From Tistrella mobilis KA081020-065 (GTDB lineage Bacteria; Pseudomonadota; Alphaproteobacteria; Tistrellales; Tistrellaceae), in contig NC_017956.1 in NCBI RefSeq assembly GCF_000264455.2, positions 1,967,501 to 2,031,500 on the forward strand: 64,000 nt of DNA, given 5' to 3'. The notes beneath the pieces are model-generated. The model saw only the letters and a list, made by a program, of their open reading frames with translations, was not told the DNA's origin and made no database searches. A program made the position numbers and the translations under genes. Of the stretch, positions 46,729-62,242 are shown piece by piece (the first letter of the stretch is position 1; every line of letters begins with the position of its first letter).

Positions 46729-47827
46729 TCACTCCTGAGCACCATGCCAGAGCCGGGCCCCCAGATAGATCTTGGCCGCCGAGCCACCCGCAGCTGGCAG
46801 CAGCTTGGCATGGCTGATCCCGACCAGGATCGCCGCGGCGGGAATACGGGCGAAGAGACGGTGGCGCCCGACGGCCCGCAGGACGCTCTCGGCCAGCCGT
46901 GGATGGGCCGCCCCCGCCTCGCCCATCAGTTCAAAGAATTGCGGCCAGGCTCCGGGGCGCCCCATATAGAAGCGGGCATCATCGTTGATCTCGATACCGA
47001 CCCGTGGGGAGATCCCCGCCGGCGTGAGGTCGATGGAGAGCGCCAGTGCTCCCCCCGCCCGCCTGCAGGCGACCGGAAAGCGGCAGAATGGCGCCCAGCA
47101 CGTGATCCCGCACCTCCGGAGCCATTTCTCCGGCCAGCAGCGACGGAATGGCGTCGGGCCGCAGGCGACGGATCACCACCCGCAGGGTCTCCGCCCCTTC
47201 GGCCCGACCGATCATTCGGCCCGCCTGGAAGACTTCGGCCCAGGGCGGCAACCGGCCGAGCAGACGTCTGAAGGTCGCGTGGATCCCGGGCCCGATCTCG
47301 CCCGACAGGCTGCAAAGCGGGGCAAAGCCGACAGCCGGGTCCGCATGGAACCGGTTGGTCGGGCTCATCTCAGGGGTCTCGTCCGCAAGATCGGCCGGCG
47401 CAGTGAACACCCCTGCATCACGAGCCCCGGGTGTGCCGGTGTCGAATTCCAGAAGCAGATCCCGCAATTGGGGAAACATGCCTCCCCGCCATGCCTCAAT
47501 CGTCTGAACCACCCGCCCCCAGGCTTCATCCGACCAGAGCCGCCGCCAGGGGCCATCGGCCGCCGCACAGGCGGGGTCCGCCACCTCCTGGCGGGTCATG
47601 GCAACACAGAGATCGACGGCTCCGCCATCCGGCGCATCGGCACGCAGTTCGACACCGAACGAATTGCGCGCCAGGGCAGCCGGTATCGCCGCAGCAACAT
47701 CCATGATCCGCCGGCGGTCTTCCGGGGGAACCAGATCGCGCCCCATGACCCCGAGCAGCGCCTGAATGGCCGGCCCCATCCCCTGACCATGATGAAGACG
47801 ACCGTCATCCGAACCGAAGACCGTCAT
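46729..47827 (-). pseudogene. RiPP-operon protein of unknown function, frameshifted in a G6 run
   Basis: The first frame (from 47827) encodes ~260 meaningful residues, then runs into a nonsense tail ending at 46979. Skipping one base in the six-G run (six C at 47051-47056 on the plus strand) continues into a second good frame: GALALSIDLTPAGISPRVGI, INDDARFYMGRPGAWPQFFE and ISHAKLLPAAGGSAAKIYLG, ending at 46729. The restored protein would be 365 residues. I cannot name the family; segments LRDLLLEFDTG and LGRLPPWAEVFQAGRMIGRA look conserved. Its ATG overlaps the stop of the toroid-like gene. The frameshift may be a real mutation, a sequencing error in a homopolymer, or +1 recoding. Confidence 0.7.
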
Positions 47828-48762
47828 ATGCCGTCCCCTCGCCTCCGCGCGCGTGCCAACGCCCCCAACGTCAATGCCGTTGCCAATGCGTCCGAGCGAT
47901 AGTGGCAGCCGGGCGGTGCAGGTGGGGTGACACCGAGATAGATCGCGTCCGAGCGACAGTATCCATGCGTGAAGACCTCGCGGACCAGCAGGGCAACTGG
48001 GCGGTCCCTGACAGGCAGCGGCAGCATGTCCAGGGCGTCGGCAACATCCAGGGCCTGCGCCAGACGAAAGGGCGAGGCTCCATCATCCTCCAGCACCCGG
48101 GCCGCCGTCCTGGAGACGTCCGGCAGTGCTGGCCGCAAGCTACCTGTGCCCCGACGAACGGCACGGGCGACGGCCTGGGCCAGATCGATGGGATGGTCGT
48201 AAAAGATCAGCGCCTCCCGCGCAGATCCCGAACAGGCTGCGATCACGAAATCGGCCGCCGCGCGGCATTCCACGGCATCGCCCAACCAGCCGATCATGTT
48301 GGCATTCACCACGGCATCGATGTCCAGATCGGCTCTCGGCCCTGCCATCCAGGTTCTGAAGCGGCCATCCGGTACCCGTGCTGCACGCCCCAGAGTGCGA
48401 TTGCGGCCGGATGCGATCCAGGGATGGGCGCCGGAGAGCGCCATGGAGGCACAGGCGGTGTCGTCGCAATCGGGCACGAAGCCCTCAAGATAGGCCCAGA
48501 TCCCGGGTGCGCGCATAGTGCGCACAAGAAACCCGCGCGAGCGGTCGATCAGCGCGGCAATCTCTGTCTGGTCCGGATCTGCAAGCCCCCCAAGCGCCAG
48601 AAGCCCCACCGCCGCCACGAAGGGCGTGCGCTCGTCGATCCCGGGACCGACGGGATTATCGGGCGGGCCCGGCACACGCTGCGAGGGCCAGCAGCCGTCG
48701 GCAGCAACCGTCCGGTTCAACCAGTCCCGGGCCACACCGAAGGCGTGATCGATCTCCACCAT
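47824..48762 (-). CDS. Toroid-fold (squalene-cyclase/prenyltransferase-like) protein with DxDDTA motif
   Basis: This 312-residue protein looks like an alpha-alpha toroid: repeated helical segments such as TPFVAAVGLLALGGLADPDQ, RSRGFLVRTMRAPGIWAYLE and RSDALATALTLGALARARRR. The segment VPDCDDTACASMAL carries DxDDTA, the catalytic acid motif of class II terpene cyclases and squalene-hopene cyclase. At about half the usual size it is unlikely to be a normal hopanoid enzyme. It starts three bases after a putative RiPP precursor gene, so peptide modification is a reasonable but unproven role. Confidence 0.7.
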   Translation of the reverse strand: MVEIDHAFGVARDWLNRTVAADGCWPSQRVPGPPDNPVGPGIDERTPFVAAVGLLALGGLADPDQTEIAALIDRSRGFLVRTMRAPGIWAYLEGFVPDCDDTACASMALSGAHPWIASGRNRTLGRAARVPDGRFRTWMAGPRADLDIDAVVNANMIGWLGDAVECRAAADFVIAACSGSAREALIFYDHPIDLAQAVARAVRRGTGSLRPALPDVSRTAARVLEDDGASPFRLAQALDVADALDMLPLPVRDRPVALLVREVFTHGYCRSDAIYLGVTPPAPPGCHYRSDALATALTLGALARARRRGDGI

Positions 48763-48765
48763 CCG

Positions 48766-49065
48766 TCACCGCATGTTGCCGACCAGCGGAGACTGCGGGG
48801 CGTTCAGCCACGGCGTCAGGTCGACATTGCCGCGAGACGCCAGAAACTGTGCCAGGGCCTGCTGAATCTCGGCATCGGTAAAGCCGCCGGTCCCACCTGC
48901 GACGCGATCCAGCGCGTCGTCGTCCAACGCTCCGTCCTCTATGGCGGGCGCCGCCCGGAAGATCTGTGTGACCGCCGATTTCGGGTCGCTCTCCAGAAGG
49001 GCCGCCAGCTCCGGCTTCTCCCGGACCGCCGCTGCAATCCGGGCCAGAATCTCGTCCATGCTCAT
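48766..49065 (-). CDS. Putative RiPP precursor with double-glycine leader (NHLP/Nif11-like), second copy
   Basis: This 99-residue peptide has an amphipathic leader (ILARIAAAVREKPELAALLE, then DPKSAV) and the cleavage-type motif LDDDALDRVAGG at residues ~47-58. A 41-residue tail follows, with NVDLTPWLNAPQSPLVGNMR at its end. GAGAGGG precedes the ATG. It lies 42 bases after the first precursor. The tail shares the pattern VD...LNxP with that peptide. Identification rests on leader layout and clustering. Confidence 0.72.
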   Translation of the reverse strand: MSMDEILARIAAAVREKPELAALLESDPKSAVTQIFRAAPAIEDGALDDDALDRVAGGTGGFTDAEIQQALAQFLASRGNVDLTPWLNAPQSPLVGNMR

Positions 49066-49107
49066 CAGAATTCCCTCTCCCCCGGCGCCACCACCGGTGG
49101 ATTGGCC

Positions 49108-49380
49108 TCACATCGGAAAGTTGAGGTTATTCCAGTCGACAGTGCCGCCGGACACCGCTTCCAGGGATGCGTCGTCCAGTGCATCGCCGGCGGGCGGCAG
49201 CACGATGTGCAGGCGCGAGGGGGTTTCTTCATGCACCACGACCTCCAGCGCCGTCGGCAGTTCGATCCCGAGCAGTGTGGAGATCGCAGCCTTCGGATCG
49301 CGAAGCATTGTCTCGCGAAATCCCGGATCGGCAGTTGCGCGGTCGAGAATGCGGTTCAGAGCGTCATCGCGGGACAGCAT
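49108..49380 (-). CDS. NHLP-type RiPP precursor peptide (nitrile-hydratase-like leader)
   Basis: This 90-residue peptide has the nitrile-hydratase-alpha-like leader pattern: ILDRATADPGFRETMLRDPK, then LGIELPTALEVVVHEETPSR and LHIVLPP. It continues to the leader end LDDASLEAVSGG (residues ~68-79), leaving a predicted core of only 11 residues, TVDWNNLNFPM. AGGTGAG precedes the ATG. It is the first gene of the operon. A perfect TTGACA (49494-49499, minus strand) lies ~115 bases upstream, without a clear -10. Confidence 0.8.
   Translation of the reverse strand: MLSRDDALNRILDRATADPGFRETMLRDPKAAISTLLGIELPTALEVVVHEETPSRLHIVLPPAGDALDDASLEAVSGGTVDWNNLNFPM

Positions 49381-60328: not shown

Positions 60329-62242
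<1,914 letters not shown>

Follow-up and report, generated by a model that had tools for sequence, protein, structure and literature searches.

A predicted split prenyltransferase and terpene cyclase encoded with NHLP-type peptides in Tistrella mobilis

Gene order and precursor peptides

A compact operon lies at positions 46729-49380, on the minus strand, of a 64-kb window of the Tistrella mobilis KA081020-065 genome. The window is the whole stretch of DNA presented for analysis, and all positions refer to it. According to the window's list of open reading frames (ORFs), four minus-strand ORFs encode, in transcription order, the small peptides pepA and pepB, a toroid protein, and a last protein (Table 1). 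The gap between pepA and pepB is 42 bases and that between pepB and the toroid gene 3 bases, and the toroid and last genes overlap by 4 bases. The compact operon had been described in an earlier reading of the DNA letters (the original prediction) and is confirmed here. The operon is discussed here as a candidate pathway for peptide terpenylation.

pepA belongs to the NHLP leader family, scoring 67.3 bits against TIGR03793 (cut-off 50.9), and its core reads [TN]VDWNNL[NH]FPM across three genomes. The leader of pepB ends in LDDDALDRVAGG and lacks the VHEE..LPP stretch of NHLP leaders. With Pfam, pepB has a single match, below cut-off, and phmmer connects it to the pepA of a sister species (E 8e-4). 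Because of its leader ending and this phmmer match, pepB is taken as a shortened relative of the pepA leader type. An assignment of pepB as a Nif11 peptide was dropped, as the NCBIfam search (E ≤ 1) gave no Nif11 match. Each peptide carries one Trp, in the core of pepA and in the tail of pepB, and both are kept in the three genomes.

The genes were compared with their counterparts in G142, a genome of the same species, and G001, a sister species. Against G001, synonymous and nonsynonymous divergence (dS/dN) are 1.14/0.066 for pepA, 1.11/0.13 for pepB, 0.78/0.17 for the toroid gene, and 0.77/0.13 and 0.73/0.14 for the first and second parts of the last gene. Since dN is well below dS in all of these against both G142 and G001, the operon genes are judged by conservation to be real. 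Upstream of the operon, a 649-aa ORF with the same orientation was read by eye as an aspartyl-tRNA synthetase.

Table 1. Features of the operon, with positions in the window
Feature	Positions	Strand	Description
pepA	49108..49380	-	90 aa precursor with NHLP leader; leader end ...LEAVSGG; core TVDWNNLNFPM
pepB	48766..49065	-	99 aa second GG-leader peptide; one Trp in tail (..DLTPWLNAPQ..)
toroid	47824..48762	-	312 aa; predicted monodomain class II terpene cyclase; DCDDTA at residues 98-103
last gene, first frame	46979..47827	-	282 aa ORF; predicted ABBA prenyltransferase; family-like to about 47,045-47,063, out of frame beyond
last gene, second frame	46729..47067	-	rest of predicted prenyltransferase; profile positions 250-366; conserved H-x-K and K-x-Y

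Predicted folds of the two enzymes

The third protein was correctly described in the original prediction as a toroid with a DxDDTA motif, and it can further be read as a class II terpene cyclase. It has no Pfam family match, and no Pfam or NCBIfam model exceeds its cut-off. A profile of 13 toroid homologues (A4), run against PDB sequences, matches drimenol synthase (E 1.5e-11), AstC, and single-domain squalene-hopene-type cyclases. For the window toroid, an AlphaFold2 model built from a 25-row alignment reaches a mean predicted local distance difference test score (pLDDT) of 87.3. Its best Foldseek match is again drimenol synthase (E 1.1e-10), with monodomain cyclases and MstE among the matches listed, and VIA-align superposes the model on drimenol synthase with Z 30.6 and a root-mean-square deviation (rmsd) of 2.5 over 286 residues. 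The first 33 of the best 50 VIA matches are terpene cyclases, with Z falling from 30.6 to 17.7; non-cyclase toroids (hydrolases) start at Z 17.6, and only the upper matches stand clear of them. The DCDDTA motif aligns with the DxDTT of drimenol synthase. Its middle residue, D100, is invariant in the sets of 13 and of 25 toroids and aligns with the Asn of the AsDMS D333N structure. The protein thus combines a toroid fold of the class II terpene cyclase type with a DxDD/DxDT acid motif at the catalytic place. Because of the fold matches and the acid-motif alignment, it is predicted to be a monodomain class II terpene cyclase. Since LanC proteins are toroids too, a LanC-like reading was considered and set aside; no LanC appears among the best 50 VIA matches, which does not by itself exclude LanC.

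The last protein had been assigned to an unknown family. This holds insofar as no Pfam or NCBIfam model passes its cut-off, but the predicted fold places it as an ABBA PRENYLTRANSFERASE (prenyltransferase family). The protein modelled was a homologue from locus L124, 22% identical to the window part, with a mean pLDDT of 89.8 from a 15-row alignment. The model of this homologue has repeated alpha-alpha-beta-beta units and the alpha-beta-beta-alpha (ABBA) barrel. All 50 Foldseek matches listed and all 50 VIA matches listed are prenyltransferases by title, and the VIA match with the highest Z, MpnD, is an indole prenyltransferase (Z 16.7, rmsd 4.3 over 301). The prenyltransferase structures listed share the ABBA barrel. 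Nine residues are conserved in 20 or 21 of the 21 rows of the family alignment, namely E60, D72, D129, R208, R216, H339, K341, K352, and Y354; in ABBA enzymes, basic and Tyr residues bind diphosphate. This prenyltransferase family is named by no Pfam or NCBIfam model, and the analysis supplies a sequence profile for it. An early three-row version was weak and was left out of all counts; among 398 genomes of the phylum it found the window's own genome and G567 (E 2e-4).

Pairing of the two families and their known relatives

In a class-wide sample of 385 genomes searched for both proteins, the toroid was found in 11 and the prenyltransferase in 15, and all 11 toroid genomes are within those 15 (hypergeometric P 2e-18, uncorrected for relatedness). 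A first set of 12 toroid loci was read from G-coded genomes. The prenyltransferase lies 0 to 8.3 kb from the toroid in 12 of 12, although the L027 copy is truncated by a stop and by the end of the contig; a separate NHLP peptide is present in 11 of 12. A single-sequence contig scan with the window toroid found no relative, and an alignment-based scan was needed. From its 219 toroid relatives the best 80 were kept as a wide set, mostly from metagenome-assembled genomes labelled as many phyla. These loci are not all independent: one pair comes from one bin, RHO2_bin_50, and L124 is the same DNA as L030 of the first set. The prenyltransferase is found in 64 of the 80 wide-set loci. Among the 43 loci with at least 7 kb on each side of the toroid (well-flanked loci), it is present in all 43, with a separate NHLP peptide in 41, a YcaO protein in 39, a C39 exporter in 40, and a halogenase in 35. 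Both enzymes therefore have homologues that occur together and mostly with NHLP peptides, instead of never standing beside them, and the modified-peptide pathway proposed from the NHLP leader is well supported.

The prenyltransferase also occurs apart from the toroid. G285 and G287 encode it with no toroid match in a whole-genome search. No toroid was seen near the prenyltransferases of L170-L172, which contig ends or the stretch taken may explain. In L169, L170, and L172, an NHLP peptide and a prenyltransferase lie in a stretch in which no toroid was seen, and the cores are LCCCF, RCCC, and one ending AGCM. L170 holds two prenyltransferases together with a protein of the geranylgeranyl reductase family (over cut-off). 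With the G260 toroid as query, tblastn found no match on plasmids. On cyanobacterial plasmids, the family's prenyltransferase lies near NHLP peptides in Nostoc sp. UHCC 0926 (L176), and in Pseudanabaena galeata (L177) a 597-aa protein of the family, annotated as a 2OG-Fe(II) oxygenase, has a Nif11 peptide and a LanM nearby. In G001, a 613-aa protein (L165:8378-10216) joins a prenyltransferase-like part to a part that by eye resembles an S-adenosylmethionine methyltransferase, and L168 holds a further prenyltransferase-like protein of 555 aa (E 4.9e-12).

Four proteins of 663 to 725 aa match the prenyltransferase profile in their N-terminal part (E 4.7e-30 to 1.4e-14) and carry a further half. 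In the 725-aa fusion of L166, whose prenyltransferase half matches at E 4.7e-30, the other half matches a prenylcyclase (E 8e-34) and MstE (E 6e-31) by sequence. Pfam squalene-hopene cyclase domains are over cut-off in L166 and just under it in L164; the remaining two fusions show no Pfam domain and only weak toroid-profile matches. In the prenyltransferase tree, a supported branch (99/96) separates the window lineage and the fused proteins from the srp, class 2, and prenyltransferase-only lineages.

Two enzymes, NctPC and ChrPC, are named in the available portion of PMC13290415 as placing a cyclised isoprenoid on a ribosomally synthesized and post-translationally modified peptide (RiPP), and both are fused. 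NctPC joins an alpha-beta-beta-alpha prenyltransferase to an MstE-like cyclase and transfers a C20 chain onto Trp, which is then cyclised, and ChrPC is likewise a fused prenylation and cyclisation enzyme with another prenyltransferase fold (PMC13290415). The window operon shares with them a prenyltransferase unit and a cyclase unit, assigned here by predicted fold, that are encoded with a RiPP precursor. However, NctPC and ChrPC are single fused proteins, whereas the window has two overlapping genes; the comparison is with their description in that portion of PMC13290415, not with their sequences. Because the fused architecture is absent and NctPC is known here by description only, the operon is not classed as a member of the NctPC kind. 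It resembles NctPC in its working and is set apart as a two-gene split form, and its chemistry is not wholly new.

Other known systems share single features with the operon. PalQ/PalX, as seen in the consulted part of PMC10853753, also prenylates Trp of an NHLP-type precursor, from a three-gene cluster; but PalQ resembles trans-isoprenyl diphosphate synthases rather than ABBA enzymes, and the cluster as described there has no cyclase (PMC10853753). MstE and drimenol synthase share the toroid's fold and acid motif, and the titles of their structures name small prenylated molecules or farnesyl diphosphate as ligands. The cyanobactin prenyltransferases LimF and KgpF, among the fold matches listed, also act on peptides. 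They differ in installing short-chain groups, going by the part of PMC13290415 that was available, and the profile of the window family matches no solved structure by sequence.

The same pair recurs in a cluster type described from bacteria that live in sponges. The SrpE core is LCCCW, and, in the text seen of PMC10286304, its Cys residues are cyclised by SrpC and its Trp is brominated by SrpI. LCCCW is the commonest core in the NHLP ORFs examined here (60 of 96, a set with repeats that includes other NHLP ORFs of the window's own genome), and YcaO is present in 66 of the 80 wide-set loci, so that the combination of LCCCW with YcaO occurs in the wide set. Because LCCCW is the published SrpE core, the LCCCW loci are taken as srp clusters. 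Many isolate names in the wide-set scan are presumably those of sponge projects. In 79 of the 80 wide-set loci (L063-L142 except L106; for example, L140:9704-11002), the NHLP leader profile finds a match within the cyclase ORF as well, as though the enzyme carried a copy of its substrate's leader, and the NHLP-like stretch is N-terminal in the srp-type rows of the toroid alignment.

Some neighbours in these loci have possible roles in lipid chemistry. A relative of a fatty-acid-desaturase-domain protein is found in 64 of 80 wide-set loci (PF00487 in two tested), and MMPL transporter relatives are found in 31 of 80 (a sterol-sensing match in one tested). Because of these neighbours and the geranylgeranyl-reductase-family protein of L170, the srp loci would fit a lipid-like product. 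An odd pairing occurs in an srp-cluster protein at L028:4719-7163 and L032:10594-12987, where a PF00487 desaturase is joined to a GlnE-like PF03710 domain (over cut-off in L028, under it in L032).

The window operon and the srp clusters have in common the toroid and prenyltransferase families, NHLP precursors, and NHLM exporters. The window operon is nevertheless not an srp cluster, as defined by an LCCCW core with the YcaO protein SrpC and the brominase SrpI: neither a YcaO protein nor a brominase lies near it, the window yields no halogenase match, its core is different, its acid motif is DxDD rather than DLDS[TS], and its toroid lacks the NHLP-like N-terminal stretch. The chances are about even that the split ABBA prenyltransferase and class II cyclase form a general RiPP tailoring device that spans many phyla and is constant in srp clusters. 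The srp products would then be azoline-bearing, brominated peptides with a cyclised isoprenoid, and the NHLP-like leader domain of the cyclase would be a new tie to a leader-guided pathway. The srp work covered from the literature concerns the bromination and azoline steps. Word searches of PMC10858898 and PMC9426513 found no mention of prenylation or terpene cyclisation of srp peptides, with a single 'cyclase' in PMC9426513, and the founding JACS 2021 paper, which lay outside this search, may name such genes; in the part of PMC10286304 shown, the sole occurrence of 'prenyl' is in the reference list. The presence of the pair in srp clusters yields a testable prediction of terpenoid peptides for an orphan product family.

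Proposed pathway, alternatives, and genomic context

The operon probably encodes a split prenyltransferase and terpene cyclase pathway that puts a cyclised isoprenoid on NHLP peptides, with the activity of both enzymes predicted; the probability of this reading is put at roughly 0.78. Its direct support comes from the gene order, the NHLP leader of pepA, sequence conservation, the pairing of the families, the predicted folds, the acid-motif alignment, and the fused relatives. We infer enzyme activity, donor length, acceptor residue, step order, and export in trans from these features. The NHLP leader of pepA, and probably also the shorter leader of pepB, would bring the peptide to the ABBA-fold prenyltransferase. 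This enzyme would transfer a polyprenyl group, most likely farnesyl or geranylgeranyl, to an aromatic residue of the core. The acceptor would most likely be the single Trp of each peptide (the W of TVDWNNLNFPM in pepA and of DLTPWLNAPQ in pepB). The class II cyclase would then protonate the attached chain through the middle Asp of DxDD, closing one or more rings. Finally, the leader would be cut after GG and the product exported by an NHLM-type C39 exporter encoded elsewhere on the chromosome. With two precursors and two stand-alone enzymes, the operon would be a very small, separable version of such a pathway, which would let the individual steps be assayed separately. Trp as acceptor would fit the G260 stretch L061, where Trp is the last residue of all 11 NHLP peptides, whose cores are of ten kinds.

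Several observations weigh against this pathway. The terpenylation activity of the pair is a prediction from fold, motif, and context. The prenyltransferase assignment rests on predicted fold: the family profile has 0 matches at E ≤ 10 among PDB sequences, and the Foldseek TM-scores listed for the L124 model are moderate (0.37-0.58). The original prediction gave both peptides NHLP/Nif11-type leaders; this stands for pepA, but pepB matches no NCBIfam model at E ≤ 1, TIGR03793 included. No prenyltransferase was seen in 16 of the 80 wide-set loci; in each of these 16, the flank on one or both sides of the toroid is shorter than 7 kb. The acid motif of the window toroid is not shared by the srp type, as the 80 wide-set toroids have DLDST (61), DLDSS (16), or another motif (3), and none has DxDD. 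Trp is not universal among the cores, since those of G285/G287 are LCCCF and RCCC and one paired locus ends in SY. There is no simple Trp rule for second peptides either, which end in MCCCGI in four loci, and the C-terminal Trp of srp peptides is a known bromination site in the section of PMC10286304 consulted. Finally, the window prenyltransferase is frame-broken.

The profile of this family (A3) matches the window in two frames, at 47045-47824 (E 1.2e-68) and 46735-47067 (E 5.9e-36), and comparison with G142 shows a single indel near 47,063. Judged from these matches, the last gene extends beyond its 282-aa ORF. Because G142 and G001 each hold one open frame (365 aa in G142 and at most 399 aa, by the first possible start, in G001), the gene has either been broken recently in the window genome or been mis-assembled. 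The pathway of the window strain may be silent unless the frame break is a sequencing error. The indel could mean that the operon is decaying and the system out of use in this strain, which would be compatible with the pathway proposed above. Decay of this kind is possible, though clearly the less probable view: dN is still well below dS on either side of the break, the copies in G142 and G001 are intact, and an assembly error could account for the indel.

It is unlikely that the prenyltransferase acts on the peptide while the toroid is a degenerate cyclase that binds leader or substrate, with a linearly prenylated product. Such a binding function is what the NHLP leader match in 79 of 80 wide-set toroid ORFs looks like, 77 of the 80 have DLDST or DLDSS, and G285 and G287 have the prenyltransferase and NHLP peptides without a toroid. 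However, the window toroid keeps the full DxDDTA, the Asp at position 100 does not vary in either toroid set, and the structures most similar to it are those of drimenol synthases, which have DxDTT. Less probable by some way is a pair that makes a free meroterpenoid or prenylated small molecule, with the NHLP peptides as carriers or unrelated neighbours. The structural match to MstE, which was crystallised with prenylated dihydroxybenzoates and no peptide according to the structure titles, would agree with this. The separate NHLP peptides of 11 of 12 first-set and 41 of 43 well-flanked loci argue for a peptide substrate, as does the presence of the prenyltransferase family close to NHLP or Nif11 peptides on plasmids of cyanobacteria, and in a lasso-like cluster (below). 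Least credible is the wholly new peptide chemistry of the original prediction, which is in keeping with the failure of either protein to pass any Pfam or NCBIfam cut-off but claims too much, since both predicted folds belong to known catalysts, and RiPP maturases that fuse the two have been reported (NctPC and ChrPC, in the seen part of PMC13290415).

The split pathway proposed here would draw on partners outside the operon. The original prediction held that the known partners of NHLP peptides are missing from the window. A phmmer search of the window ORFs, which covered YcaO, halogenase, HlyD-like proteins, and NHLM exporters (LanM and radical SAM were left out), bears this out for YcaO, as the srp YcaO has no match; the srp halogenase and HlyD-like proteins likewise have none. 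For the exporter the claim needs a qualification, since two NHLM exporters match one ABC-type ORF at 60329-62239 (E 1.3e-24), a match that is taken as due to shared ABC domains. NHLM exporter proteins over their cut-offs are encoded at 1.68 Mb of contig C1, the same chromosome as the operon, and a second NHLM-like exporter set (L058, G000:C1 about 1.616-1.622 Mb) reaches 568.8 bits against the TIGR03797 cut-off of 709.4. The genome also encodes two polyprenyl synthases, and its only YcaO match is on contig C4.

Beyond pepA, the genome has 15 matches to the NHLP model at E ≤ 0.1, four of them over cut-off. Three of these four belong to an array on contig C3 and have Trp close to the core start. 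This array (L059:9369-10968; G000:C3 about 395.4-397.0 kb) comprises four NHLP-like peptides, three with Trp soon after GG. No maturase was recognised by eye beside it in the stretch read, and the window pair may act on its peptides in trans.

The lasso-like cluster lies in the same genome (L163:7264-13755; G000:C1 about 3.722-3.729 Mb) and includes a 663-aa protein that matches the prenyltransferase family in its N-terminal part. A lasso leader match is over cut-off, isopeptide-cyclase-like and PqqD-like proteins are below theirs, and an HprK-like kinase and a P450 are also present. By eye, similar lasso-like clusters are found in L166 and L167. Clusters of the L163 type are candidates for the production of terpenylated lasso peptides.

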